Source of the DNA: Entophlyctis helioformis
Taxonomy: Eukaryota > Chytridiomycota > Chytridiomycetes > Chytridiales > Chytriomycetaceae
Assembly (NCBI GenBank): GCA_025526915.1
Contig: JAHLKH010000127.1
Coordinates: 1 to 64,000 of the forward strand
Direction: 5' to 3'
Length of the DNA stretch: 64,000 bases
Shown: positions 12,592 to 63,494 of the stretch, one piece after another
Layout: each line of letters starts with the position of its first letter
Position numbering within the stretch: the stretch's first letter is position 1
The notes under the pieces: generated by a model
Seen by the model: only the letters and a program-made list of their open reading frames with translations
What the model was told of the DNA's origin: nothing
Database searches by the model: none
Position numbers and translations under genes: made by a program

Positions 12592-12862
12592 GTCTGTTGG
12601 TCTGACTGCAAGGATTGAGATTGAGCAAGAGCGACAAAGGCCTCTCAATCCAGCACGTGAAAAAGCGGCCAAGTCGCCCGCTGCTGCTGGGCACGTGTCG
12701 TTGCAATTCGTCATTTTGAAATCTGAATTTGCATTCCAAAATTTGAGTTGGAGTTCGGAATTATGAATTTTGAGTTCGACGCTTCAAGCTCAGATCCAGC
12801 CATCAGCCACCTGGCCCAGATCCACGTAGTGCACCAAGCACAACCTTCCCGTCCACAACAAC

Positions 12863-14539
12863 ATGCTCGGCGCCAATGCCTTTGCGGGCCGCTCGCCCGC
12901 TGACTCTGTGTCGGTCGCCTGCGTGTCGCTCAAGAGCGACGCCAGCGTACGTCTCATGTTCGGCCCGCCCGACTTTGCCATTGTGCTCCGCAAGGCTCTC
13001 GAGCCCATCAGCCCCATCGCCCTCGGCTCGGGCACCAGCGACATCGTAGGGTGGCTGCAGCCCTACGGCCTCGTCTCGGTCTCGTTCAAGCTGCTCATCA
13101 AGGTCTGGACTTCCAGCAACACCGACAGCGCCGCAAAGGCCCGCCAGCGCGCCGCTACCCTGGTGCACTCGCTCGCCGCCGAGGGCTGGTCGCTCAAGAC
13201 GTCCATCAGCCTGCCGTGCAGCACCGTTTCCTTTGACAACCTGTTCTTTGTGCGCGCCGAGCCCAACATCCTGCCCGTCATGACGCTGCACTTGCGCCAC
13301 TCGGGCAAGATCATCGCTGCCAGCGCGCAGCCCGTCAGCCACGCCACCATCGTCAGGATCCGCAACACCATCCTGAGCTCGTGGCCACTCGGCATCGCCT
13401 CTGAGCGCAGCCTTGACCCGTTCACTCGCAGCTTCAAGCTTGTGATGCCAACGCGCACGCTCTCTACCGCCGACCCTGCGCAGTCCCGTATCATGACCAT
13501 GTGTCTGATGCGGACCATGCACGATCTCGGCTACCGTCTGCTTGGCCCGAGCGCCGTCGATCCGTGGTCCCAGGTCAACACCAACAACGGCGACACGCTC
13601 TTTTTCCAGAAACGTCCGCTGTCCGAGCTGCATCACAGCAACTACGCCGCCAACCTCGCGCCGCCAGCCTACAACGATCTGTTTGGTGCTCAAGCTGGCG
13701 CCGTGTCTGGCAGCGGGTCGTCTGTTTCCCTCTCAGTCGCAACCATGCTCGCACCGCCATCACGGCGATCCTCGGTCTCGTCCGACACACCATCGACCGC
13801 AGCACGCGACCTCTCCAGCCTGTCGTGCATCCTGCTCGACGCGTCCCACTCCATCACCATCATCTCGCCGTCGGCGTACGACTCGCTCATCCCCATGACA
13901 CGACGAACCATCGCCCGCGCGTGGCCGCAAGGCACCGACGCCGAACGGTTCCACCTCACCTTTGGATTCCCTGTCACAGAGTTCAAGCTCAAAGGCGACC
14001 CCTTCTCAACCCACTATGGCACCATCCTCGTTCTCCAGCTGCTCTCGCACGCTGCCTTGGCCGGCTGGCGGCTGTCGGAAGCCATCAAGGACAAGGCGAC
14101 CGACGAGCTGCCGATGCTCGTGCTGACGCCTTCGGCGTCGCAGCCCGAGACCTGCGTCGTGCACTTTGCCATCGCGTTTGCTGCCGGTCATTCGCGACTC
14201 CGCCTCATCACCGTCAGCGACTCGGCGACGTCGTCGGCCGAGTCCCTCATGCCGCCATCCGACCTCGCTTCCCTGACGTCCATCATCAACCTGGCCACCA
14301 TCCAGGTCATTGGTCGCGTGTGTCCCGTGACCATGACCACGGGTCTCGCCGAATGGACCCTCTCCCGCGCGCAACACCGCGAGGACGTGTCTGGAGGCAC
14401 TTTGCGCAAGTGCCGCTTCCTTGTCGCGCTGCTCATGCACCGCTTCGAGGCCGCCGGATGGAAGTTCCTCGCCGCACCCCAGCTGACCAAGTCAGTGACA
14501 GATATTCAGACGGATACACTCGTGTTTGGCCGCCTATAA
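12863..14539 (+). CDS. FM1: four-module protein of unrecognised family, PPxY in linker
   Basis: A single exon of 558 codons with no recognised named domain. Visible by self-comparison are four copies of a module of about 110-130 residues. Each module starts with a short beta-like run (VRLMFGPPDFAIVLRKAL; TLHLRHSGKIIAAS; ILLDASHSITIISP; HFAIAFAAGHSRLRLI), then has an F-K-L core (VSFKLLIKVW, RSFKLVMP, TEFKLKGDPF), then a helical stretch ending G-W (AAEGWSL, AALAGWRL, EAAGWKF), and closes with a D-x-L-F-F/V-F strand (DNLFFVR, DTLFFQKR, DTLVFGR). Modules 2 and 3 are joined by a Ser/Thr-rich linker containing PPAY. No signal peptide or membrane segment is seen, so a cytosolic location is likely. 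DNA is nearly identical to FM2 over long stretches. Function is unknown. Confidence 0.85.
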   Translation: MLGANAFAGRSPADSVSVACVSLKSDASVRLMFGPPDFAIVLRKALEPISPIALGSGTSDIVGWLQPYGLVSVSFKLLIKVWTSSNTDSAAKARQRAATLVHSLAAEGWSLKTSISLPCSTVSFDNLFFVRAEPNILPVMTLHLRHSGKIIAASAQPVSHATIVRIRNTILSSWPLGIASERSLDPFTRSFKLVMPTRTLSTADPAQSRIMTMCLMRTMHDLGYRLLGPSAVDPWSQVNTNNGDTLFFQKRPLSELHHSNYAANLAPPAYNDLFGAQAGAVSGSGSSVSLSVATMLAPPSRRSSVSSDTPSTAARDLSSLSCILLDASHSITIISPSAYDSLIPMTRRTIARAWPQGTDAERFHLTFGFPVTEFKLKGDPFSTHYGTILVLQLLSHAALAGWRLSEAIKDKATDELPMLVLTPSASQPETCVVHFAIAFAAGHSRLRLITVSDSATSSAESLMPPSDLASLTSIINLATIQVIGRVCPVTMTTGLAEWTLSRAQHREDVSGGTLRKCRFLVALLMHRFEAAGWKFLAAPQLTKSVTDIQTDTLVFGRL

Positions 14540-14892
14540 CCCGTGGCCTTAATACTTTTGTAATCTTAGTAATGAAGAGGCTTTGTACTCAAAGGACGCC
14601 TCTCTGCCTGTCTGCCGCTCTGCCTGTCGTTCTGCTTGGCTGAGGACTCTCGAGCCAAGCACGTGAATTGCGGTATGGCCGCCATCCGGTGCTGGGCCAT
14701 CTGTTGCAGTGCACGTGCCCTAACCATTCGCTGACAATCGTCGCGCTGACGTTGGTCGTCGTTTTGAAAATTGCCACATAAAAGGTCGGCATTTCAACCC
14801 TGCCACGTCAACGGACGTTCCGCCAACTCAGATCCCCTCAGATCCGCCCAGATATCCGCCCAGATCCCGCCTGTGCACCAACCGACCAAGAC
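14540..14892. other. Spacer between FM1 and FM2
   Basis: 353 bp with a TATA-like element (about 14775) and the CAGATCC repeats near the FM2 start. No gene is seen. Confidence 0.6.
14828..14870 (+). promoter_or_regulatory. Tandem CAGATCC-type repeats upstream of FM2
   Basis: Four CAGAT(C/A)TC-like units about 10-12 bp apart end 23 bp before the FM2 start codon; FM1 has only two scattered copies (CAGATCCA) in its leader. They may bind a regulator or simply be a leader expansion. A TATA-like CATAAAAGG stands about 50 bp further upstream. Confidence 0.4.
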
Positions 14893-16818
14893 ATGCTCGG
14901 CTCCAGCTCTCCTGTCAGACCTCCCACGATCCTTGTCAGGGCTCCCACCGTCGCCAGCTCTGGTGCTGCCGCTGGCACCAACCCGCCCGTAGACAACCTG
15001 GCCGTCGCCTGCGTGTCGCTCAAGAGCGACGCCGGCGTGCGCCTCATGTTTGGCCCGCCCGACTTTGCCATTGTGCTCCGACAGGCTCTCGAGGCCATGG
15101 GCCCTGTCGCCACCAACCCTGGCAACGACGATGCGGCAGAGTGGCTGCGGCCGTACGGCCTCGTCTCGGTCTCGTTCAAGCTGCCGACCAAGGTCTGGAC
15201 TTCCAGCAACACCGACAGCGCCGGAGACTCCCGCTGGCGAGCCGCCACCCTGGTGCACTCGCTCGCCGCCGAGGGCTGGTCGCTCAAGGCGTCCATCAGC
15301 CTGCCGTGCAGCACCGTTTCCTTTGACAACCTGTTCTTTGTGCGCGCCGAGCCCAACATCCTGCCCGTCATGACGCTGCACTTGCGCCACTCGGGCAAGA
15401 TCATCGCTGCCAGCGCGCAGCCCGTCAGCCACACCACCATCGTCAGGATCCGCAACACCATCCTGAGCTCGTGGCCACTCGGCATCGCCTCTGAGCGCAG
15501 CCTGGACCTGTGCACCCGCAGCTTCAAGCTTGTGATGCCGACCCGCACGCTCTCTACCGCCGACCCTGCGCAGTCCCGTATCATGACCATGTGTCTGATG
15601 CGGACCATGCACGATCTCGGCTACCGTCTGCTTGGCCCGAGCGCCGTCGATCCGTGGTCCCAGGTCAACACCAACAACGGCGACACGCTCTTCTTCCAGA
15701 AACGTCCGCTGTCCGAGGTGATTAACGGCGACCTGGCCGCCGACTATGCGCCGCCAGCCTACGACGATCTGTTTGGTGCTCAAGCTGGCGCCGTGTCTGG
15801 CAGCGGGTCGTCTGTTTCCCTCTCAGTCGCAACCATGCTCGCACCGCCATCACGGCGATCCTCGGTCTCGTCCGACACACCATCGACCGCAGCACGCGAC
15901 CTGTCCAGCCTGTCGTGCATCCTGCTCGACGCGTCCCACTCCGTCACCATCGTCTCACCGACCGCGTACAACATGCTCATCCACATTACGCGCAAGACCA
16001 TCGCCCGCGCGTGGCCGCAAGGCACCGACGCCGAACGGCCCCACCTGACCTTTGGCTTCCCCATCACAGAGTTCAAGCTCAAAGGCGACCCCTTCTCAAC
16101 CCACTATGGCACCATCCTCGTTCTCCAGCTGCTCTCGCACGCTGCCTTGGCCGGCTGGCGGTTGTCGGAAGCCATCAAGGACAAGGCGACCGACGAGCTG
16201 CCCATGCTCGTGCTGACGCTGTCGCCGTCCTCGTCGCCATTATCGCCGACATTCCCATCGTTGCCAACATCGCCAATATTGCCGACATCGCCAACGTTGC
16301 TGTCAATGCTGACATCCCCGACGTCGCAAATGTCGCCAACATCGTCAATGCCCCCGGTATCCTCGACATCCTCAACATCCTCGACGCCCCCGACATCCCC
16401 AACTGCCCCATCGGCATCGCAGCCCGAGACCAGTGTCGTGCACTTTGCCATCGCGTTTGCTGCAGGCCATTCGCGACTGCGCCTCATCACCGTCAGCGAC
16501 CCAGAGACGTCGTCGGCCGAGTCCCTCATGCCGCCATCCGACCTCGCTTCCCTCAAGTCCATCATCAACCTGACCGCCTTCCAGGTCAGCGGCCACGTGT
16601 GTCCCGTGACCGTGTCCACCGGTCTCGCTGAATGGACCCTCTCCCACGCGCAACACCGCGACTCGCTCTCTGTCGACACTCTGCGCAAGTGCCGCTTCCT
16701 CGCCGCGCTCCTCATGCACCGCTTCGAGGCTGCCGGATGGAAGTTCCTCGCCGCACCCCATCTCATCAAGTCGAACGCTGATATTCAGACAGACACGCTC
16801 GTGTTTGGCCGTCAATAA
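14893..16818 (+). CDS. FM2: four-module protein, recent duplicate of FM1 with Ser/Thr/Pro insert
   Basis: A single exon of 641 codons with the same four modules as FM1; modules 1-2 and the PPAY linker are almost base-for-base the same as FM1. Differences are a different N-terminus (MLGSSSPVRPPTIL), altered residues just before PPAY, and about 70 extra residues between modules 3 and 4 (about 16217-16425) made of degenerate Ser-Pro-Thr units. The insert keeps the frame, and the text on either side (LVLT, then SASQPET) matches FM1. The stop lies only 45 bp from the stop of the convergent coiled-coil gene. Upstream is a short tandem array of CAGATCC units and a TATA-like ATAAAAGG. Function is unknown. 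Confidence 0.85.
   Translation: MLGSSSPVRPPTILVRAPTVASSGAAAGTNPPVDNLAVACVSLKSDAGVRLMFGPPDFAIVLRQALEAMGPVATNPGNDDAAEWLRPYGLVSVSFKLPTKVWTSSNTDSAGDSRWRAATLVHSLAAEGWSLKASISLPCSTVSFDNLFFVRAEPNILPVMTLHLRHSGKIIAASAQPVSHTTIVRIRNTILSSWPLGIASERSLDLCTRSFKLVMPTRTLSTADPAQSRIMTMCLMRTMHDLGYRLLGPSAVDPWSQVNTNNGDTLFFQKRPLSEVINGDLAADYAPPAYDDLFGAQAGAVSGSGSSVSLSVATMLAPPSRRSSVSSDTPSTAARDLSSLSCILLDASHSVTIVSPTAYNMLIHITRKTIARAWPQGTDAERPHLTFGFPITEFKLKGDPFSTHYGTILVLQLLSHAALAGWRLSEAIKDKATDELPMLVLTLSPSSSPLSPTFPSLPTSPILPTSPTLLSMLTSPTSQMSPTSSMPPVSSTSSTSSTPPTSPTAPSASQPETSVVHFAIAFAAGHSRLRLITVSDPETSSAESLMPPSDLASLKSIINLTAFQVSGHVCPVTVSTGLAEWTLSHAQHRDSLSVDTLRKCRFLAALLMHRFEAAGWKFLAAPHLIKSNADIQTDTLVFGRQ
16217..16425 (+). repeat. 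Degenerate Ser-Pro-Thr minisatellite inside FM2
   Basis: About 200 bp of imperfect 9-15-bp units (tcgccaac, attgccgac, ttgtcaatg variants) lie in frame between modules 3 and 4 of FM2. They are absent from FM1, where the two flanks meet directly, so the tract expanded after the duplication. Confidence 0.8.
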
Positions 16819-20948: not shown

Positions 20949-22628
20949 ATGCTCGCTGCGCAAGAGCCACAGCTACAACCGCCGCCGCCAGCCTACGGCA
21001 GCAGCGCGCCGTCGATCAGCAACACCGCCTGCCTGTCGTTCCCGCTGACCGACAGCGTCCGCATCGTCTACGGCCCGCCCGAGACCGTCCTCCTCGTGCG
21101 CCAGGCCATCCGCGCATCGTGGCCCGCCGGCATCCGCCTCGAACGCACGCTGGTGGATAAATTCGCCAGCCAGGCCCGCAGCCTGAGCGACGCCTACGGC
21201 CTCGTCTCGCACAAGTTTGAGCTCAACGGGATCCCGTGGCAGACGGCCTTTTCCGTCGATGCCGCCGCCCGTGCCCGGCTCGTCTTTCTGTCGATCCTGC
21301 ACACCATGGCCACCAACGGCTGGCGGGTCGTTGCGTCCACGATGCTGGGCAAGACCGTCGACCGCTGCGACAATCTGTTCTTTGTGCGCGACGTGCCCAA
21401 CCCTTCGCCCATGGTCGCCGTCGGCTTGCGGCCCGTCGACACCCTCCTCGTCGTCGGCTGGCAGACGGCAAACGACCGTGCCGTGCAGGCGATCCGCGAG
21501 ACGCTGGCTGCCCATTGGCCGCGTGGGTTGCAGGCCGACAAGGTCATGGGTCCGGCTGCCCACCGCTTCCGGCTCCGCGGCAGGCCGTGGCTCCTCGACA
21601 AGGAAGACGCGGTCGAGGCTCGCTTGCTGGTCAAGGCCATGATCGAAAAGGTCGCCCTGCTCGGCTACGATCTCGTCTGCTGCAACATGGTCGAGCCGTG
21701 GACGTTCAATCCGCGTGCCCCCGTGTTCCTCCACTGCGACACGCTGTTCTTCCAGAAACGCAGCCCCGCCGCGCAGGACGCTGTGCAGGACGCCAGCGCC
21801 GCCATGCTCGATGAGCTGCCGCTGTATGAAACGGTGGCCAGCCCGCCTGCGTACGGCGGCATGGCGGGCATCTCTTCCCGCCAGCGCGACCATCTGGATC
21901 TGTCCAACCTGGCCTGCATGGCCCTCGAGTCCACCGAAAGCATCGTGCTGCTGTCGGACCCGGCCGGCGTCATGCCTTCTGCAGTGCAGGACGCCGTCGC
22001 GCTCGCATGGCCGCGCGGCATCCAGGGCTTCAGCGAGCAGCCAGGCAGCTCGCAAGGAACCAGCATCACCGTGCCCGAGATCAAGCTCAAGGGCAGCCCG
22101 TTTGGCAGCGCAGGCGACGACGCCGTCCTCGGCAAACGCTTCATTCTCACCCTCCTCTCGCAGATGGCCCTGCGTGGCTGGCGACTCGCCGAATCGCTCG
22201 ACATCAAAGCCACAGACGACCTGTCCATGCTCGTGTTTGCCCCCTCGGCCCCCGCGACACGCGCGGTGCATTTCGCTGTCGCGTTCAGCGTGCAGAACAA
22301 GGTGCGGCTCATTGGCTGCAACAGCACCGATCCGTGCAGCCTCTCGCCCGCCGAGTCCACCCAGGTCGCTGGCATCATCACGGATGCGCTCAACGAGATC
22401 ACGGCCAAGCCGACCCAAGACGTTTTTGCTGGCGCGATCGAGTGGACCGCCGCCGTCAAGGGCCTGGATCTGTACATTGACAAGGCGGAAGCCATGCGAC
22501 GCGTGCGCCTGTTTGTTGGGTTGGTCATGGTCAGACTGGAGGCTGCTGGATGGTCGCTGGTCGGCACGCCCAGTCTCAACAAGAAGACGCTGCAGTCGGA
22601 TGTTCTCGTCTTTGCTCGCTTCGAATGA
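20949..22628 (+). CDS. FM3: four-module protein, diverged paralogue
   Basis: A single exon of 559 codons with the same four-module plan as FM1/FM2 but clearly diverged. Module cores read LVSHKFELNGIPW, HRFRLRGRPWLL, PEIKLKGSPFG and, degenerate, IEWTAAVKG. Helix ends read TNGWRVVAS, LGYDLVCCN, LRGWRLAES and EAAGWSLVG, and closing strands read DNLFFVRD, DTLFFQKRS and DVLVFARFE. The linker between modules 2 and 3 again holds PPAY, and a second PPPPAY stands at the N-terminus (residues 9-14). The K/R-L-x-G-x-P-W/F signature is cleaner here than in FM1, which suggests FM3 is nearer the ancestral form. Only 54 bp separate its stop from the first ATG of FM4. Function is unknown. Confidence 0.85.
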   Translation: MLAAQEPQLQPPPPAYGSSAPSISNTACLSFPLTDSVRIVYGPPETVLLVRQAIRASWPAGIRLERTLVDKFASQARSLSDAYGLVSHKFELNGIPWQTAFSVDAAARARLVFLSILHTMATNGWRVVASTMLGKTVDRCDNLFFVRDVPNPSPMVAVGLRPVDTLLVVGWQTANDRAVQAIRETLAAHWPRGLQADKVMGPAAHRFRLRGRPWLLDKEDAVEARLLVKAMIEKVALLGYDLVCCNMVEPWTFNPRAPVFLHCDTLFFQKRSPAAQDAVQDASAAMLDELPLYETVASPPAYGGMAGISSRQRDHLDLSNLACMALESTESIVLLSDPAGVMPSAVQDAVALAWPRGIQGFSEQPGSSQGTSITVPEIKLKGSPFGSAGDDAVLGKRFILTLLSQMALRGWRLAESLDIKATDDLSMLVFAPSAPATRAVHFAVAFSVQNKVRLIGCNSTDPCSLSPAESTQVAGIITDALNEITAKPTQDVFAGAIEWTAAVKGLDLYIDKAEAMRRVRLFVGLVMVRLEAAGWSLVGTPSLNKKTLQSDVLVFARFE

Positions 22629-22682: not shown

Positions 22683-24315
22683 ATGAATCTTATGTGCCGC
22701 TTGGACTTGCCTCTGTGTGCACCGAACATGCCCGCCGACATCGCTTGTGTCTCGTTCGAGTACAGCGGCCTGCATCTGACATACGGCCCGCCAGAGGTCG
22801 TCCCACTGCTGCGTCAAGCCCTCAGTGCCTCGTGGACCAAGGGCATCGATAGCGAATGGAGCATCAATATCGAGCGTCCTCTTGAGGCCGCCTTCCTCTC
22901 GACCATTGCCGGCGGCCTCGTCTCGCACAAGTTTGGACTGAACGACTCCCCCTGGAATGCCACCTCGTCTGAGTCTGCAACACTCAACCGCTGGATGGTC
23001 GCAACCATCCTGCAGACCATGTCGGCTGCCGGCTGGCGGGTCATTGCGTCGCCCATGGTTGGCAAGACGATCAAGCGATGCGACGATCTGTTCTTTGTGC
23101 GCAGCGTTCCAAACCCCATGCCGTTCGTCTCTGTCGCCCTGTGGTCGTATGACAGCATTCTGTCGTCGCACCCACCACATTGGCCACCGGTCGTCGAGGC
23201 TGTCCGTGGATCGATCCCTCGCACCGGCCACAAGCATCCAGAGCAGAAGGCAACCGGAATCATGTCCAAGTTCAAGCTCAAGGATACCCGTGGCATATGA
23301 ACCAAGCGGACGCCGTCGACGCTCGTCTGCTGGTCAAGCCATTATCGAGGCGATGCATGCCGTTGGTTACGATCTGGTCACCTGCAACGCTGTCGAACCA
23401 TGGATCTACGAGAAGGACAAGAAGAACCCCCGTGCCGATACGATGTTCTTCCAGATGCGGTCTGATGGCCCACCGCTCGAATCATTGCCGCCAAGCTACG
23501 AGGAAGCAGTCGCTGAAACTAGTGGACCAACTGGATTCGGTGGCATGGCGGGATCGCCACAGCCGCTGGCGCCTTTCCCGCAGCCAGCCATCGATATGAG
23601 TGACCTCACGCTTCTGGCTCTCCACGATGCTGAATCCATCATCCTTGTCTCGAGCCAGTCGCAGATCCTCTCGCCTGCCGTCTTGCAGACCATCAACACA
23701 GTGTTGCCCAATGGTCTGAAGGAAGAACAGATCAAACAGGGCACCGTGTACGCTGTCCCCAGGTTCAAGCTGAAAGGCAACCCGTTCTGGTACGGTTATA
23801 CAGCCCCCGTCGCCAGTAAACGCCTGATCGTCACTCTCCTGGCTCGGTTTGCGAACTACGGTCTTCGAGTAGTGACGGACGTTTCCACGATGTCGACTTC
23901 CAAAGTGTCCACATTCGTCTTTGGCAACGCGCCGCCTGTCAGACGCGCTCCGCACTTTGGGCTCGCCTTCAGTGACGTCAACAAGATTCAGCTGATCGCA
24001 CTCAACAAGGGCGATCCCAACGCACTCACGGCGCTCGAAATGCTTTACGCAGAGTCGGTCATTGTCGAAACACTGCAAGAGATCACCGCTCGGGACTGCG
24101 TGCGCGACGATCTTGATGGTGTGATAGAGTGGACTGCTCCGCGTGAATCGTTTGACCTGCAAAGCAACGACTCCGACTCGATGCGCAGGACACGCCTGTT
24201 TGTCGGGTTGGTCATCGCCGGAATGGCCTCGCTTGGCTGGGCTGTAGTTAGCACCCCGTCATTGGGCGTCTATGGACAGCAATCGGATGTTGTTGTGTTT
24301 GCCCGCTTCGAGTGA
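22683..24315 (+). pseudogene. FM4: four-module paralogue with two frame breaks
   Basis: The sequence matches FM3 over its whole length but not in one frame. The frame from 22683 reads module 1 (GLVSHKFGLNDSPW, AAGWRVIASPMVGK, DDLFFVRSVP) and ends soon after MSKFKLK. The next stretch (GYPWHMNQADAVDARLLVK) is in a second frame, and from AIIEAMHAVGYDLVTCN to the stop (DVVVFARFE) a third frame is used. Both breaks need one G restored directly after AAG (23280-23282 and 23336-23338); with both the product would be about 544 residues. The linker motif is PPSYEEAV. Everything downstream of the breaks is well conserved, with no stop codons, so the damage is either very recent or a consensus error. 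An AATAAA follows at 24346-24351. The 54-bp gap to FM3 leaves little room for its own promoter. Confidence 0.7.
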
Positions 24316-27251: not shown

Positions 27252-30200
27252 TTACTTCTTGGCCAAGGCTTCGATATGCTCGCCAACGCTTTCAGACAGC
27301 GTTCCAAGGCGGTTCTGTCGCAGGTTAAAGTTCTTGAGCAACCGGAGTTGCGTGATGGATTCGGGCAGCGTCTCGAGCTCGTTCTGGCTCAGGATCCTGT
27401 CCAGACAAGTTGAGTATCGTGCGCCAATGTGCTGATCGGCGGAGACGGCTCTTACAGCTCGGTGAGTGCGGTGAGGTTGCCGATCGATTCTGGCAGTGCC
27501 TTGAGCTTGTTGTGGCGCAGGTTGCTGTGTTGCAGGCATGGATGAGATTGAGCATCGGGAGTGATGGCTGCGTTGCAGATTGGACTCACAGCTGCGTCAG
27601 ATGCGTCAGGTTGCAGATGCTGTCTGGCAGATGCGTGAGCTGGTTGTCGCTGAGTCCCCTGTATCCATGCAGTCAGTATGAGCGCGTCCGTCATCATGCC
27701 ATGCCACTTTGACGAACAGGAAAGTCAGCTTGGCGAGCTGGCCGATCGATGCGGGAAGCGACTCGAGTTTGTTTTCCTTGGTGTACCTGGCGCGTCACAG
27801 CATTCAGCATTCACGCTGCTCGAGCAGAGCACAGGCACGATCAGCAGAATGCGTACAATTCTTCGAGGCCCCTCATCCCGCCAATCGACTGCGGCAGCTC
27901 CTCGAGCATGTTTTGCGAGACATTGAGTTCCTGCACATGCACAAGCCTGCCAATTGATTCAGGCAGTCTCGTGATCTTGTTATCGCGGATGTTGCTGTCA
28001 TCCACATGTCAGCCATCGCGAACAATCAACAAGCAGCAAGAGGTGCACGCACAGCTTGAACATGTTGGTTAGGTCGCCAATGTTATCAGGCAGCTTGGTC
28101 AAGTGGTTCTCATCAAGGTACCTGGCAACGCAAGCATGTCAACAACTGCATCTCACAACACAGACTGCCACAAAATAAGCAACAAACAGCACGGTACTTA
28201 CAGGCGTGTCAGGTTGGAGAGGTTGCAGATCGAGTCGGGCACAGAGGTGAGCTGGCATTCACGGAACCCACTGGCAAGTACCCGTGTGAGTTGGCGAATC
28301 CAGCTGCAATGCACATGGCCAGAACCCACAGTCGCTTCAACGACGTCAGACTGCCAATGCTCTCGGGCAGTGTGCCGAGATTGTTGGTGCGCAAGGCCCT
28401 GTCCAGCGAATGAGCCTTTCTTGCCGAGTGTTTTGCATAGGTCCATCAACCATCTATCCACCCGTTCATCCATCAAAGCCACTCACAAGACCTCGAGACT
28501 CTTGAGGTCGCCAAACCGCTCTGGAAGGCACCTGAGCTTGTTTGTGCCGCCAACACTGCACAGAGACTAGAGTAAGCTCACTGCAGGCAAACACGGATCC
28601 ACGTCCAGAATGCAGACGTACAAGACACGAAGAGATGGGAGCCGGCAGAACGAGTCTGGAAGCGTCTCGAGATTGTTGTTTCGCAGCTCGCTGTTGCCGC
28701 CGAGATGCCAGCCAGTGTCAGTTCCCAAGGCAGCGCGTTTGGCAATGCAGAGCAGAGGCCGACACTGACAGGTAGGATAGGCTGGCCAAGTCTCCAAAAT
28801 TGTCTGGCAAGACCTCGATCGCATTGTTCTGCATCGTCCTGGAGGGTCAACTTAGGGTTAGATATCCTTCGCTCCGATCCGGCCGCAATTGCCGCATCAT
28901 GGATCTGGCATACATATTGTCCAGATTTACTAGCTTGCAGAGCGAGTCTGGTAGTCTGGTGATCTTGTTCGACGCCAGTCCGCTGTTCCATTGCGTCAGC
29001 ATGCAGAACGCCTGAGCATGAGCATGCCAATGCGACCCACAGTTCAACCAGGTTGGTCAAGTTGCCAATCTGGTCGGGCAGAGCCTCGATCTGGTTCTTG
29101 TCCGCTTTCCTGCACAGTACGGTTAGCAAAGGCATCGAGAATGGGAATCAGCACGAAGGGCAGGCTCACAGAATGGACAGGCTGTAAAGCTGGCAGATGG
29201 AGTCGGGCAGCGACGTGAGCTTGTTGTCGCCCGCATACCTGCAGGTATGGATTGAGCGTGAGTGCCGTGTGTTGATTGACACCGCACGCATCTGCTGTTC
29301 AAACACCCACAGCTCCTGCAGGCAGCTCAGATGGCCCATCTCTGGAATGCAGGTCAAGTTGTTCCGGCTCAACTCTCTGGAATGGCAGTCAGCGGCACGA
29401 CAAGTGCATCCCTGCAAAACATTGTCGCCGTTATGCACACACTTACAGCGTGTTGAGAAGGTACAGGCCGTTGAGTGACGGCACGCTATCCAGCTTGCAT
29501 CCACTCAGGTTCAAATGCGCCAAACGGCTGAGCGTCCAGATGCTCTCGGGCAGCTGGTGCGGCAGCTTGTTATCACGCAGGTCGAGCGTCTTGAGGTTGC
29601 GCAGATTGCCGATATTGGCGACATTCTCGAGACTCTTCCTGTCCCAGCGCGTGGCTGCCGAGCTGGAAACCACGATGGCAGTCAGTGCAACTGTAAACGG
29701 CGTCTGGGCGAGATCCGCGTGTACTCACAAGACTTCCAGCTTGGTCAGTTTCTCGAGGTTTGGAATATGCGTGATGTTGTTGGCAGCGATGTTGCTAGCG
29801 ACCCACACGTTGTGAGCGGGATGTCGTGCATGTGACAGGCATGCATTCATACGTCACGTAACACTTACAGAATCCGCAGATTGACACATTCAGAGAGAGT
29901 GGAAGATACCGTCTCAAACTGGTTCGAGTTGATGTCTCTGCAGACAACCTCGGTTGTGTCAGAACGCGTGCAGCCATGCACAGTGCCTCTTGAGCAGCTA
30001 TCGCGACTCACATTTCGTGCAGCTCGGTCAACATGGACAAGAGGTGCGGCACAGATCCAACCAGGTTGTTCTGCCCAAGGCGACTGCATCGCATGTGTCA
30101 GAAAATGAGACGGCTGGCCACACGCCTGCGATCCCAGCTCACAGCGAGGTCAGCTTGGTCAGCTTGCACAGCTCCATGGGGATCATGCCCTCAAAGTCGT

Positions 30201-32920
30201 TTTGATCGAGCCACAGCTCTCTGAGCTGCGTGAGCAGGCCGATATCCTTGGGGATGGCTCCGGACAGACCGCATCCCGTCAACCGCCTGTCGAACAATGC
30301 CCGCCCTAGCATCAGCATCCCGCCAAGGTCTCGGCAAACCAAGACGCCTCGACCTACAGCGCAACCAAGTTGTACGTGTCGTCCCACTCAATGCGCCACT
30401 TGGGGATGTTGCGCTTGGCGAGCCGGTCGTACATGTGCAGCATCTCGCCAGTGGGCAGATGCTCGGCATTGGCAGTGATCTCGCTGTCCTTGGCCCAATC
30501 GGGGAAGATGCTGCACAGCACCTCCAGATCCGACGCGCCGTCCGTGAGCTTGGTGCCTCCGTCTTGGCGTAATGCCATGCGGCGAGTCAGCTTACAATCC
30601 ATGCAATGAGCAACGGCCGGAATCGGCATACCGGCGTTGATGGGACTGACGGCCGATGCCAGGACATTGACAATCTCGTCAAAGTGAGGGCGGTACTTGA
30701 AGAACCCGAGACACTTGACCAGGCATTGCCACAGCTCATTGCTCACGTCTTCCGGCCGCTCGGCCGTCTCAATGTCGAGGTCTTGGATGGTCGAGCGCGT
30801 CAGGACAGCCATGGCAATGACGGCAAACGCATAAATGTCGAGCGACGGCTTGGGCGAGTAGTCCTTGACTGCAGCCTCTGGCGCCATGCACTTGGTCGCC
30901 TGCTGCGGCCCAGCCAGCGCACGGATCGACTGTATGCCGACACCAATCTTGACCTTGTTGCCCTTGGCATCTGTGTGTCGTTGATCCATGAGGAGGTGGG
31001 TGGAGCAGGTGAGCGGCCAGCCAAGCATCCTCTCCCACTGCCAATCCTAGCGAAACTGACCCAGCAGGATACGCCGCATGGTGATGCTGCCGTGGAGAAC
31101 AGGAGCTCCAGGTGCGTACACATGCAGGTACTTGATGCCACGTGCAACGCGAGATATAATGCGCAGACGGTCTTGGGTACTCAGATCGGGATACTTGGCC
31201 AGGTAAGTCTCGAGGTTGTACTCCATGAACGGCATGGCAATAAACGGCCGATGGGTGCTGCCCTTGGGGGTCTTGAGACAGATGCCCGTGATGGGCAGCA
31301 GGTTGGCGTGGCTGAGCTGGAACCACTTGCGGGTCTCGGTCAAGAAGTCCTCGCGCACCTTCTCATCGAGCTCCTTCTTGAACTCCTTGATAACGTAGTC
31401 GCTGCCGTCCATCTTTGCTTTGTAGACCAGGAATACGCCCTTGGAGTCTTCGGGTGCAGTCGAGACGAGAAAGTCGTCATGGCGGATGTGGAGAGTGCGA
31501 GGACGGATGAGTCTGTAGGTGGATCTGTCAGCGGGGCTGTTGAACGCAAGCATCTCAAAGATCCAGCGTACCCGAGGATCTTGTCTGTCTTGGTGTCGAT
31601 CAGGTTGAGTTTCTTGGCCGTGTGCATGAGCATGACAGCAGAGTCCACTTGCATGGCAAGCGAGATCAGCTGGTGGGTGGACAGAGTCAGTCAGCCAAGT
31701 GCACAGATCCATGAGAGCAAAGCGATCGTCACGCACCTCCTTGATCTTGGCAAGGCGTGCCCTGAACTCAGCAATCTGGGCTTCGACCTCTGCTTTCTTG
31801 GATCCCATGACAAGCATAAGCCAGTTTCTCCCGGGTCTCGTGGTCAAGATAACCGTGTCTTGCACATCCTCGAGCAGATCCACCAGCTCAGCGCACTTGC
31901 CGCGCACATCGGCAGAGAACCACTGGTTGGCCATCGGTGCAAGGATCGTCTTGAGCTCCTTGAGGTCGGCCAGGAAGCTCTTTAGACCACCAATGCTGTC
32001 CATGCCGTCCTTGATGTTGCTGAGGATGCTGTCGATGATGCCAATGGCGACGGCAATGCCTGGGATCGGCACAAACTGCGACGCGGCCTTGGCAGCAGAG
32101 ATGACGGTCGAGGCGACTTCGAGACCGTTGGTGGCGAGGAAGCGCGTGACGGCCTTGACGCTGCTGCCGTCGGTCTTCTTGGGAGCCTTGCGGATCATGT
32201 CGACAAACTCGACGACAGTGCTGCTGAGCGTGGCGATGCTGGAGATGGTGGCCGTGTCAAAGTCGGATGCATCCTGGCCGAGGCTGGCGAGGAACGAGTT
32301 GCAGGCCGTGATGGTCTGGCCTTGGTTCTCAAGGGTCGAGCGCAGAACACCCTTGAGCTCCTCAAAGGCGGCATCGGCTGTGGCCGACTTTGCTGCAACG
32401 GCCGCTTGCAGCTGTGCATCGTCGAGCACAGAGGCGGCAGGCGGGGTGGCTGACCGGCTCGTCTGGTAGATGAGCGCCTGCATGTCCAGGCAGCGGCCGA
32501 CAACGTCGTCAAAGGCCGTCTTGATGGACTCGGCCGCTGGATCGAGACTTTGGATGTGGTCTGCCGCCCTGTGCAGCATCGTCACAACATCCGCCTGCAG
32601 CTGTTGCACAGGGCAGCTGGATGGGTCAGTCGACAGCGGCAGGCAGCAGGCAGTGCGCAGCAGCAGCAGATGATGGGCAGCAGCCTCACTTTGGCAGCGT
32701 CGATTGGCGAGATGACGGGGGCGGCCCTTGGCGACGTTGTGCGGTCGTTGTCGCTGTCGTTGTCGCTGTCGTTGTCGTCAGCAGCCGCATCAGCCACTCC
32801 CCCGACGCCGCAGATGAGGCGGTCGTACAGCTTGCTCAGGCTGTCGTGGTGCACAGGCGTGGAGCGAGACGGCGGCTTGGCGGCGCCAGACTTGGACGTC
32901 GGCCTCTTGTCGACACCCAT
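27252..32920 (-). CDS. Helical domain - pseudokinase - leucine-rich-repeat protein (25 exons)
   Basis: Exons: 32920-32690, 32600-31737, 31669-31572, 31512-31061, 30970-30358, 30286-30143, 30083-30012, 29937-29869, 29794-29729, 29662-29447, 29376-29311, 29238-29170, 29109-29041, 28982-28914, 28838-28770, 28690-28622, 28555-28487, 28398-28330, 28270-28202, 28121-28053, 27994-27857, 27786-27718, 27658-27590, 27524-27456, 27396-27252. They sum to 4002 nt (1333 residues). Residues about 78-400 are all-helical with a hydrophobic FVPIPGIAVAIGIIDSIL stretch, resembling MLKL/HeLo-type bundles. A kinase fold follows: the beta-3 Lys is present (YVIKEF), but the HRD motif reads HGS and the DFG position reads GVG, so it should be catalytically dead. 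From residue about 750, LRRs of 23-24 residues (LPxSIxxLxxLxxLxLxxN type) run to the C-terminus. No signal peptide or membrane segment is seen, so the protein should be cytosolic. A signalling or surveillance role is inference. Confidence 0.88.
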
Positions 32921-33051: not shown

Positions 33052-34781
33052 CTAGATTCGCTTTCTAGGCTGGGCCGCGACTGGCTTGACGCGGGCAGTG
33101 GCAGCAGCAGGGCTGGCTGCAGGGTTGGCAGCAGGGCTGGCAGCAAGCTCGGGCTCGCCAAGCAGCCCAAACTCGTCATAGTATCCAGTGCGAGCGGGCA
33201 CAGCACCGGAATGGTGAGTGTCATCGTCATCGTCGTCATTGTCGTCCACTGGTGCTTGAACGGCTGCTCGTCTGGCGCGTGTGGGCTGAGGCTGCGGCTC
33301 GGCTGCACGGCTGGCAACAGGGGCAGGGGTGCTGGCAGGCTGAGCAGCCTGCTGCGCGCGGACGGAAGGGCGACGGACAGGCGCAGGTTCGGCAGCGGCG
33401 GCAGCAACCTTGGATGACGCGACAACAGGAGCAGGCTTGGAGAGAGCGGCAGATGAGATCTTTGGGACGGCACTCGCGGCAGGAGCGACAGCAACAGGAG
33501 CAGGAGCAACAGGAGCAGGAGCAGCGCGAGGAGCGGCTTTGGCTGTCTTGACAGGCTTTGGCGTCGCGATCTCTTCAACAGGCTCATCCTTCTGTACGGC
33601 GGGCTTGGTCTTGTGTCTGGGAGTCGTCGTTGGCGCAACATACTCGACCTCCTCCTCGACAGGCTCGTCCTTTTGCACGACAGGCTTGGCCTTGCGTTTA
33701 GGAGTGGCGGCTGGCGCAACATCCTCGACCTCTTCTTCGGCGGCGGCATCGTCGTCAACAACCGCCTTGCTCTTCTTCTTGGTTGTGCGCGTTCCCGCAG
33801 CCTTCTTGGCAGTCTTCTTGCCAGACTTTGGTGCCTTGGGGAGGTCCTTTTCAGGAACTTGCGGCGACATCATCATCTTGCCAACACCAACCGCGGCAGC
33901 CGAGACCACCGCCGTCGTCATGGCAATCGCTGCTTCCTCCGACGTCTGCGGCGCAGCCTGTGCCTGAGGCTGTCTGGTGTTGGGGTCATCACCATTGTCC
34001 GTGCCTTTGATCTGGTTGTTGATGTCCTGCGCCGTCTTTGGGAGCTCCCCGATGCTCTTGCCGCAGGCCTCGCTCCACCAGCCCTGCTGCGTGCCGTACC
34101 AGCCGATGAAGCCAAAGATGACGAAAGCGCCAATGACTCCAGCCGAAGCGCCGGCTGCCGTGCCTGAGGATGACGTTGTCCGTCCAATGATGTTGACGGG
34201 AAGCCTGTTGCGATCATCGCAGCATTGGTCAGATCTTGTGTGCACTGCCTCTGCCGTGCACATGAGCCGTGCACACACAAGCAAGGAGTGAGCCGTGTGG
34301 CAAGACGGACTCACTTGGACGTTGTCGAGTCGTCAAGGAACTGGAACGACAGGGGGCAGCTGGCTTGTTGACCGGCCTGCTCGCCAGACTGCGGGCCAGT
34401 CTGCGGGTCCGCCTGCGACGCAGTGAACACCTTGGTACATGCCGCAGGCTGTGCACAGGCGACGGACGGGCAGGCAAAGGCGTCGAGCGTCTGATTGGTG
34501 GGCGAGAGCACATAGAACGACGATGACGGGTGCTGAGCAGCGGCGGCGTCGACAGCGGCAGAAGCAACGGCAGCAGCAGCAGCCGAAGCAGCAGCCGAGA
34601 TGGAGACGGTGCCGGGAAGGCACTGGATGGGTGCACCAGCCAGCGAGGCTTGGACGGTGCTGGACGAGAGCACGGCTGTGCACGACGGGCCGGCGAGCGC
34701 AGACACTTGGACGACGGCGGCCGAAGCCAGCGACGAGCACGAGACGAGCAGAGCGACGGCAGCGACAGACGAGCGGTGCAT
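33052..34781 (-). CDS. N: type I membrane protein with secreted domain and Lys/Ala/Pro-rich repeat tail
   Basis: Exons 34781-34315 and 34204-33052 give 539 residues. The N-terminus is a signal peptide (MHRSSVAAVALLVSCSSLAS). It is followed by a Cys-containing, Ala/Ser-rich ectodomain of about 135 residues with an N-glycosylation site (NQT) and a Gln-rich stalk. The intron falls just before LPVNIIGRT; then comes one membrane helix (GVIGAFVIFGFIGWY). The cytosolic tail is Lys/Pro/Ala-rich, with three imperfect repeats of the type EEEVE-VAPA-TPKRKAKP and a poly-Asp stretch. The family is not recognised. A near-copy of the whole gene lies in inverted orientation at 61783-63494; exon 1 is practically identical there, while the membrane helix differs. 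It lies directly 3' of FIGNL1 on the same strand. Confidence 0.8.
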
Positions 34782-61782: not shown

Positions 61783-63494
61783 ATGCACCGCTCGTCTGTC
61801 GCTGCCGTCGCTCTGCTCGTCTCGTGCTCGTCGCTGGCTTCGGCCGCCGTCGTCCAAGTGTCTGCGCTCGCCGGCCCGTCGTGCACAGCCGTGCTCTCGT
61901 CCAGCACCGTCCAAGCCTCGCTGGCTGGTGCACCCATCCAGTGCCTTCCCGGCACCGTCTCCATCTCGGCTGCTGCTTCGGCTGCTGCTGCTGCCGTTGC
62001 TTCTGCCGCTGTCGACGCCGCCGCTGCTCAGCACCCGTCATCGTCGTTCTATGTGCTCTCGCCCACCAATCAGACGCTCGACGCCTTTGCCTGCCCGTCC
62101 GTCGCCTGTGCACAGCCTGCGGCATGTACCAAGGTGTTCACTGCGTCGCAGGCGGACCCGCAGACTGGCCCGCAGTCTGGCGAGCAGGCCGGTCAACAAG
62201 CCAGCTGCCCCCTGTCGTTCCAGTTCCTTGATGACTCGACAACGTCCAAGTGAGTCCGTCTTGCCACACGGCCCACTCCTTGCTTGTGTGTGCACGGCTC
62301 ATGTGCACAGAAGAGGCAGTGCACACAAGATCTGACCAATGCTGCGATGATCGCAACAGGCTTCCCGTCAACATCATTGGACGGACGTCATTGACCAACA
62401 CGACGGTCAGCTCGGTTTTCGGAGTCATTGCCTTTATCTTTGTCTGCAGCTTCATCAGCTGGTTCAGCGTCAAGGAGAAGCTGTGCTGCAAGTCATGCCG
62501 TGACGACGACACAGAAGAGCTTCCAAAGACGACGCAGGACATCAACAACCGGGCCAAACACGCTGGAACGAGCACACATGTAAATGCCAGACAGCCCCAG
62601 GCGCAGGCTGCACCGCAGACGTCGGAGGTGGCGATCGCCATGTCGCAGCCACCGCCTGTTCCTGAAAAGGACCTCCCCAAGGCACCCAAGTCTGGCAAGA
62701 AGACTGTCAAGAAGGCTGCGGGAACGCGCACAACCAAGAAGAAGAGCAAGGCGGTTGTTGACGACGATGCCGCCGCCGAAGAAGAGGTCGAGGATGTTGC
62801 GCCAGCCGCCACTCCTAAACGCAAGGCCAAGCCTGTCGTGCAAAAGGACGAGCCTGCTGCAGAGATCGCGCCAACGACGACTCCCAGACGCAAGACCAAG
62901 CCCGCCGTGCAAGTGCACGATGCCGTCGAGGAGGAGGTCGAGTATGTTGCGCCAGCCGCCACTCCTAAACGCAAGACCAAGCCTGTCGTGCAGATGGACG
63001 AGCCTGCCGAAGAGATCGCGACGCCAAAGCCTATCAAGACAGCCAAAGCCGCTCCTCGTGCTGCTCCTGCCGCGAGTGCCGTCCCGACGATCTCGTCCCC
63101 CGCTCTCTCCAAGCCTGCTCCGGTTATCGTGTCGTCCAGGTTTGCTGCCGCCGCTGCCGAACCTGAGCATGCACCTGCACCTGCACCTGCACCTGCACCT
63201 TCGCCTGTGCCTGTGCCTGTTCGCTTCACTCCCGTCCGCATACAGCCGGCATCTCAGCCTGCCAGCATCCCTGCCCCTGTTAGCAGCAGGGCAGACGAAC
63301 CGCAGCCTCAGCCCACACGCGCCAGACGCGCAGCCGTCCAAGTACCGGTGGACGACAGTGACGACGATGATGATGACGACATTGTGCCTGCTCGCAGCGG
63401 ATACTATGACGAGTTTGGTCTGTTTGGCGCGGCTGAGTCTGCTGCCAGTGCCGGTGGCAAGCCAGTCGCCACCCAGCCCAAGGAGCGCATCTAG
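61783..63494 (+). CDS. N': inverted duplicate of gene N with a different membrane segment
   Basis: Exons 61783-62249 and 62360-63494 give 533 residues. Exon 1 has the same length (467 nt) as in gene N and encodes the same protein: signal peptide, ectodomain, stalk. The intron differs by only a few bases. After LPVNIIGRT the sequence changes completely: the membrane helix reads VFGVIAFIFVCSFISWF, and the juxtamembrane part is Cys/Lys/Asp-rich (KLCCKSCRDDD) instead of GTQQGWWSEACG. Similarity returns at QDINN and continues through the TPKRK repeats, an extra Ala-Pro run (HAPAPAPAPAPSP) and the C-terminus. N' therefore shares its outside with N but has its own membrane anchor. The family is not recognised. 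Confidence 0.82.

Follow-up and report, generated by a model that had tools for sequence, protein, structure and literature searches.

A chytrid pseudokinase family joining leucine-rich repeats to a probable MLKL-type helical bundle

The gene, its family and its active-kinase sisters

The 64,000-nucleotide stretch of Entophlyctis helioformis DNA analysed here (contig JAHLKH010000127.1, positions 1 to 64,000; the window, below) carries on its minus strand a gene for a protein with a helical N-terminus, a pseudokinase and a long array of leucine-rich repeats (LRRs). The gene was modelled with a splice-aware script, rebuilt by hand and compared with the deposited protein P0001 (BC831DRAFT_42442). 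It runs from an ATG at 32920 to a stop codon ending at 27252 and has 26 exons encoding 1302 residues, with 25 introns of 58-90 nt, all GT..AG, and no internal stops. A reading made earlier from the sequence alone had 25 exons and 1333 residues, figures that are corrected here and whose chief discrepancy is a 69-nt intron at 30563-30631. The other AG acceptor of exon 11 would give 1310 residues; a third candidate acceptor for this exon was dropped because it is not an AG, and an alternative splice of the kinase exons was ruled out by P0001. Residues 1-778 are identical to P0001, whose 778-residue model stops after the first two LRRs. From its N-terminus, the protein consists of a low-complexity start, a helical extension (78-225), a bundle core (~255-376), a brace helix (367-397), a kinase-like domain (~405-660), a linker with an FPDWA motif (~661-726) and LRRs (727-1302), of which a regular expression counts 23 units and the eye about 24. 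Thirteen of the 26 exons are exactly 69 nt long, and the LRR exons share the same entry phase. The rebuilt gene thus has the domain order of the sequence-only reading, namely a helical N-terminus, a kinase fold and some two dozen LRRs. Four other E. helioformis proteins (P0013, P0014, P0015 and P0019; 1220-1438 aa) have kinase and LRRs within one deposited model, and 18 further family proteins were found in all, so the order is not a matter of chance.

The kinase-like domain matches Pfam PK_Tyr_Ser-Thr (E 3.9e-16 for P0001), and its nearest solved kinases are SymRK, IRAK1 and RIPK2. With HGS at residues 538-540 and GVG at 558-560, it is a kinase fold without the HRD and DFG aspartates, which makes it a TKL pseudokinase; the VIK lysine is kept at residue 440. 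The earlier reading had recognised these losses and the kept lysine in one gene, and both prove to be family-wide. The catalytic-loop aspartate is lost in all 17 family proteins that contain the stretch (P0012 and P0018 do not) and in all 15 readable E. helioformis loci, the window included; C68 is unreadable, and C286, C318, C27 and C111a have no kinase exon in the stretch examined. No DFG aspartate was seen in the aligned family rows. All 19 family proteins keep the VxK lysine and an acid (E or D) in helix C. A tree was built from 50 kinase domains (51 were chosen, and P0029 was too short), with 14 of the 19 family members and no animal MLKL among them; the 14 form a single branch (100/100) nested in a group of chytrid kinases plus P0081 (99/99). 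Within this branch, the five Polyrhizophydium stewartii members group together (98/92) and the nine from E. helioformis do so weakly (86/59). Since the family is a single branch and its members in both species are without the catalytic residues, a single ancient loss of catalysis explains the sequences most simply. NCBI places E. helioformis in Chytridiales, yet its kinases of this type group with those of P. stewartii of Rhizophydiales, the order of Batrachochytrium and Homolaphlyctis. P0061 of Entophlyctis luteolus falls elsewhere on the tree.

When the N-terminal region was used as a query against its own genome, the domain was found on 20 contigs (two places at E 0.08 were set aside). The loci crowd toward contig ends: 17 of the 20 lie less than 12 kb from one (a zone that makes up no more than 39% of the genome, p 3e-5) and 13 less than 7 kb (bound 23%, p 7e-5), with both distances picked after the data had been seen. 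Contig C29 terminates in TTAGGG repeats, some 11 kb from its family locus. The family loci are perhaps subtelomeric, or the assembly is perhaps broken by repeats. Protein searches, each scoring about 8,000 word-sharing candidates of limited length range from a database that includes Batrachochytrium and Homolaphlyctis proteins, returned relatives only from E. helioformis and P. stewartii (all 12 and all 18 matches). Loci C27 and C318 have no kinase exons; there the cap and LRR exons come a short gap after the brace exon, and the two loci are either natural bundle-LRR fusions or pseudogenes. P0018 of P. stewartii (HK105_003092, 1965 aa) combines a class C G protein-coupled receptor (ANF_receptor, 7tm_3) with two bundle-like cores, an eroded kinase and LRRs, and is perhaps a gene-model fusion.

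A sister family retains intact kinases. Six E. helioformis loci (C153, C223, C36, C2, C64 and C56) encode a helical N-terminus, a kinase and the cap motif; a C153 query recovers the helical N-termini at E 4.5e-9 to 0.12, weakly for C223 and C36. LRRs are present at C153, C2, C64 and C56 and were not found in the stretch examined for C223 and C36. The lysine, HGD and DFG are intact in C153, C223 and C36; C2 and C64 have HGN (C2 with DFA), and C56 has HGD and no DFG. A protein search with C153 gave 62 matches at 1e-40, and precomputed Pfam annotation places LRR domains in 21 of the best 26. Those LRR-bearing relatives, from P. stewartii, Homolaphlyctis, B. dendrobatidis, B. salamandrivorans and E. 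helioformis, mostly have HGD..DFG. A search for the same order in other zoosporic fungi had been proposed with the sequence-only reading; it yields the pseudokinase form in P. stewartii and the sister-family version in several chytrids. Kinase and pseudokinase forms of one architecture therefore stand side by side in two species, and because the sister proteins of the same order are mostly HGD..DFG and come from several chytrids, the layout seems to predate the pseudokinase branch.

The helical bundle and its homogenised cassette

Homology of the family bundle to accepted members of the MLKL/HeLo superfamily is detectable through intermediates, which are the sister proteins. The family core gives a co-linear profile match to them (hhalign 94.6%, with controls). 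Four of the six sister proteins scanned pass the curated cut-off of MLKL_N (27 bits), P0033 of B. dendrobatidis among them, and the sister profile finds MLKL first in the PDB (E 1.7e-5), with MLKL filling seven of the first eight rows. The family N-terminus searched directly returned nothing over the Pfam cut-off and, among PDB profiles, only flagellin, alpha-synuclein and clusterin at E 0.17 or worse. A later, modest AlphaFold model has MLKL as its best VIA match (rows 1-3 and 5 are MLKL). The superposition covers MLKL residues 0-121, with the helix FVPIPGIAVAIGIIDSIL at its start; this helix lies within the most hydrophobic 19-mer of the window protein (mean 1.92), which is not so in every family member. 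The profiles make it most likely that the helical core (~255-376) belongs to the MLKL/HeLo bundle superfamily, and the model supports an MLKL-type bundle less firmly. If the bundle homology holds, bundle, brace and pseudokinase follow one another as in MLKL. A genome search with PF22215 gave two weak places, neither in the pseudokinase family nor in the sister loci. One of them, L069 (C111:18926-22210), is a kinase gene with a 1377-aa open frame, an MLKL_N match at E 0.033, HGN and DMG.

The same part of the gene carries a signature of exchange among paralogues. The window gene was compared with 17 of 19 paralogous loci, C286 and C111a being omitted because exon 3 is not in the stretch. In 15 of the 17, intron 2 is 88-97% identical (median 95%); at the same loci the brace exon is 93-96% and the bundle core 77-87% identical (84% for the flanking coding core). 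The same comparison gives 56-61% for the N-terminal extension (14 loci), 41-56% for intron 3 and 37-53% for intron 4, where shuffled introns set a baseline of 46% (standard deviation 6); the intron 3 and 4 values are meaningless for C318 and C27, which have no kinase exons, so that they stand for 13 loci. Synonymous difference averages 0.27 in the core versus 0.52 in kinase exon 4 and is lower in the core at all 14 loci having both. The pattern is missing at C450 and C10 (intron 2 identity 58% and 47%), and a general constraint is less likely for that reason. When aligned sites were permuted, 16 of the 17 loci, all but C10, lay beyond all 300 permutations; this test is weak because permutation also destroys constraint, and the argument rests on the intron comparison. 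P0015 is chimeric: its N-terminal domain resembles that of P0014 (77%) and its kinase (78%) and cap (95%) resemble those of P0019, the P0014 and P0015 kinases being 38% identical. From the homogenised block and the recombination at the P0015 junction, the bundle-brace cassette appears to move as a unit among paralogues by gene conversion.

Table 1. Features of the pseudokinase-LRR gene in window coordinates
Feature	Position	Strand	Remarks
Whole gene	27252..32920	-	26 exons, ~1302 aa: N-extension, MLKL-like four-helix bundle (putative), brace, TKL pseudokinase, linker/LRR cap, ~24 LRRs
Exon 1	32690..32920	-	Low-complexity N-terminus, residues 1-77
Exon 2, 5' part	32157..32600	-	Helical N-terminal extension, residues 78-225
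Exon 2, 3' part	31737..32069	-	Predicted four-helix-bundle core, residues 255-365; bundle continues into exon 3
Hydrophobic helix	32022..32075	-	FVPIPGIAVAIGIIDSIL, residues 253-270
Homogenised block	~31580..32200	-	40-nt windows: ~32200-31881 and 31760-31600, with a divergent island at ~31780-31880
Intron 2	31670..31736	-	67 nt; part of the apparently converted cassette
Exon 3	31572..31669	-	Brace helix ISLAMQVDSAVMLMHTAKKLNLIDTKTDKIL; few parts of the family are as conserved
Exon 4	31061..31512	-	Pseudokinase N-lobe and catalytic-loop region; VIK kept; HGS at 31086-31094
Exon 5	30632..30970	-	Pseudokinase C-lobe; GVG at 30936-30944, APE, alphaF Asp
Linker and LRR cap	30369..30562	-	ASDLEVLCSIFPDWA...; cap motif also in the sister family
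LRR domain	27252..30368	-	~24 repeats, mostly one 69-nt exon each

Exons 2-4 with introns 2 and 3 form a single open frame of 576 codons (31047-32777, minus strand), and a form retaining these introns would still be in frame, with an altered brace. Elsewhere in the window, two closely alike open frames lie in opposite orientation about 28 kb apart (33052-34332, minus; 62235-63494, plus), one of them adjoining the studied gene. An apparent tandem family of related open frames, judged by eye (e.g. VRLMFGPPDFAIVLR), occupies 12830-14539, 14782-16818, ~21000-22628 and 22942-24315 on the plus strand.

Known systems and alternative explanations

The closest parallel is MLKL itself, which has bundle, brace and pseudokinase in the same order and keeps a VAIK-type lysine. 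Unlike MLKL, the chytrid protein adds an LRR domain with its cap and some 225 residues ahead of the bundle, its nearest solved kinases are SymRK, IRAK1 and RIPK2, and it belongs to a large family with a homogenised cassette. We place the window protein among those that would work like MLKL and do not call it an MLKL. Plant MLKLs and moss MLKL_N kinases (e.g. P0063, P0064) also join MLKL_N and a kinase in one protein by Pfam annotation, but no LRR domain is annotated in them and their kinases fall outside the chytrid group. The fungal HeLo and HELL domains, the MLKL-like N-termini of basidiomycetes and the HELL-kinase proteins belong to the same superfamily of bundles, and HELL domains combined with a kinase or pseudokinase are noted in a 2025 review (PMC12881547). 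For the MLKL-like proteins of basidiomycetes, one additional helix at the N-terminus and a short one between h3 and h4 have been described (PMC9815663), and the model of the chytrid bundle has a short helix at 120-129. In the part of a survey of early-diverging fungi drawn on here, MLKL homologues are given only for Glomeromycotina, with Sel1 repeats (PMC8778642).

With NLR receptors the chytrid protein shares an output on the N-terminal side, a regulatory middle and a C-terminal LRR sensor, but its middle is a pseudokinase. Pfam scans found no NACHT or NB-ARC in the family, which bears out the earlier description of an NLR-like layout lacking an NB domain. An exon-wise search of the E. helioformis genome gave no NB-ARC place and one NACHT place, nearly matching the absence of NLRs reported for chytrids; the pertinent part of that report also gives fungal NLRs WD, ANK or TPR repeats, not LRRs (PMC4986451). 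A membrane LRR receptor kinase would run LRR, span, kinase, and the chytrid order is kinase, then LRR. Four B. dendrobatidis LRR-kinase genes were listed in 2010, and no helical domain is mentioned for them in the portion of that paper used here (PMC2939053). They, too, join LRRs and a kinase, without a membrane span, and P0033 is an active-kinase sister; no B. dendrobatidis relative of the pseudokinase came out of the word-limited protein searches.

Several observations weigh against an MLKL-type reading. None of the 15 family proteins scanned reaches the MLKL_N cut-off, and the match of the window protein alone is not significant. An AF2 (AlphaFold2) model of residues 78-402 with 12 family sequences was poor (mean local confidence, pLDDT, 55.7; pTM 0.31), and no fold search was made with it; a Foldseek search with the modelled bundle gave only E above 0.6. 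These points would suit a helical region that is an unrelated coiled coil or a spectrin-like spacer, with the likeness to MLKL due to chance. We regard this as very unlikely given the controlled co-linear match, the sisters over the curated cut-off and the MLKL rows returned for sister profile and model alike; a spectrin-like linker, named in advance as a refuting alternative, was not returned by the profile and PDB searches. The MLKL-like plan of the sequence-only reading thus stands in part: its profile test fails for the window protein and succeeds for most sisters, and its structural test, for which the AF2 model was too poor, finds MLKL as the best match of the later, modest model. There are also two departures from the parallel. 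The main one, relative to MLKL, HET-S and sister P0020 (in which the bundle is at the very start), is the extension of about 225 residues ahead of the bundle, modelled by AF2 at pLDDT ~40-77, which could be a second latch or a part that is removed. The other, from a simple MLKL, is the existence of same-order relatives with intact kinases. A signalling scaffold is a more serious rival, unlikely though we hold it to be: the bundle would be an oligomerisation or docking module like the head of plant coiled-coil NLRs, and the pseudokinase would recruit active sister kinases, from which the signal would go out, with no pore formed. The first rank of MLKL by sister profile and by model speaks against it, as does the hydrophobicity of the first helix, at least in the window protein.

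The remaining alternatives concern the gene and its history. Likeness of intron 2 and the brace exon might be held by a functional RNA or DNA element instead of conversion, and intron 2 is indeed more alike than the coding core beside it. Still, C450 and C10 do not share that intron, the synonymous sites of the core are also young, and the block has sharp edges with a divergent island inside, so we think such an element distinctly improbable. That the family is a decaying, functionless set of kinases whose lost catalysis marks pseudogenes might be read from stops in the aligned stretch of C286, C96 and C68 and from the kinase exons missing at C27 and C318. It is hard to square with residues lost in the members of both species, most simply once and long ago, with dN/dS (the ratio of nonsynonymous to synonymous change) below 1 in every comparison (19 of 19 and 15 of 15), or with the retained lysine, helix C acid and brace and a window gene open through 1302 codons, and we give it very little credence. 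Least credible of all is that kinase and LRR parts are separate transcripts fused by a modelling artefact. The early end of the deposited model could be taken that way, but even P0001 has the kinase plus the first LRRs, both parts occur together in deposited paralogue models of two species, and the LRR exons keep phase.

A proposed mechanism and its meaning

We consider it fairly probable, with some reserve, that the window protein is an LRR receptor inside the cell that carries its own MLKL-type executioner. Sensing would fall to the C-terminal LRRs, latching to the pseudokinase and brace helix, and output to the MLKL-type four-helix bundle. At rest, the bundle would be held shut by brace and pseudokinase. 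Ligand binding by the LRRs would free it, perhaps aided by phosphorylation of the pseudokinase by intact-kinase sister proteins, an activation suggested only by the parallel with RIPK3 and MLKL. The freed bundle would then oligomerise and act on a membrane, and the cell would be killed or walled off. Gene conversion would keep bundle and brace alike in about 15 paralogues, leaving the same oligomer or partner open to any receptor as the rest diverges. Few parts of the family proteins vary as little as the brace does, which fits a latch, and a bundle and brace common to paralogues fit the co-assembly of different receptors. The self/non-self or damage-sensing switch proposed from the sequence alone may be what such proteins provide. 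A broader and more tentative idea, which we entertain without favouring it, is that chytrids have a necroptosis-like recognition without NLRs: LRR receptors would each carry an MLKL-type executioner, active and pseudokinase classes would correspond to RIPK3 and MLKL, and an interchangeable cassette would let many sensors co-assemble into one death complex.

A bundle joined to a kinase is already known from MLKL, from plant and moss proteins and from HELL-kinase proteins (PMC12881547). The combination with LRRs, the pseudokinase branch and the conversion of the cassette appear to be new; a search of the open-access literature found no paper joining chytrid, MLKL and leucine-rich repeat, and fungi are described, in the part of PMC2939053 drawn on above, as lacking LRR pattern-recognition receptors. 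In Podospora, concerted evolution is reported for sensor repeats (PMC1805685), whereas in the chytrid family it is the output end that is homogenised. This raises the question of whether a receptor family stays able to co-assemble because its output part undergoes gene conversion, and the sister kinases raise another, whether a single architecture has repeatedly given rise to kinase/pseudokinase pairs like RIPK3 and MLKL. With about 20 LRR proteins that carry an MLKL-type bundle, and with active kinases of the same order in several chytrids, early-diverging fungi would possess a candidate system for recognition and cell death, and the family suggests a previously unrecognised fungal system of defence or recognition.

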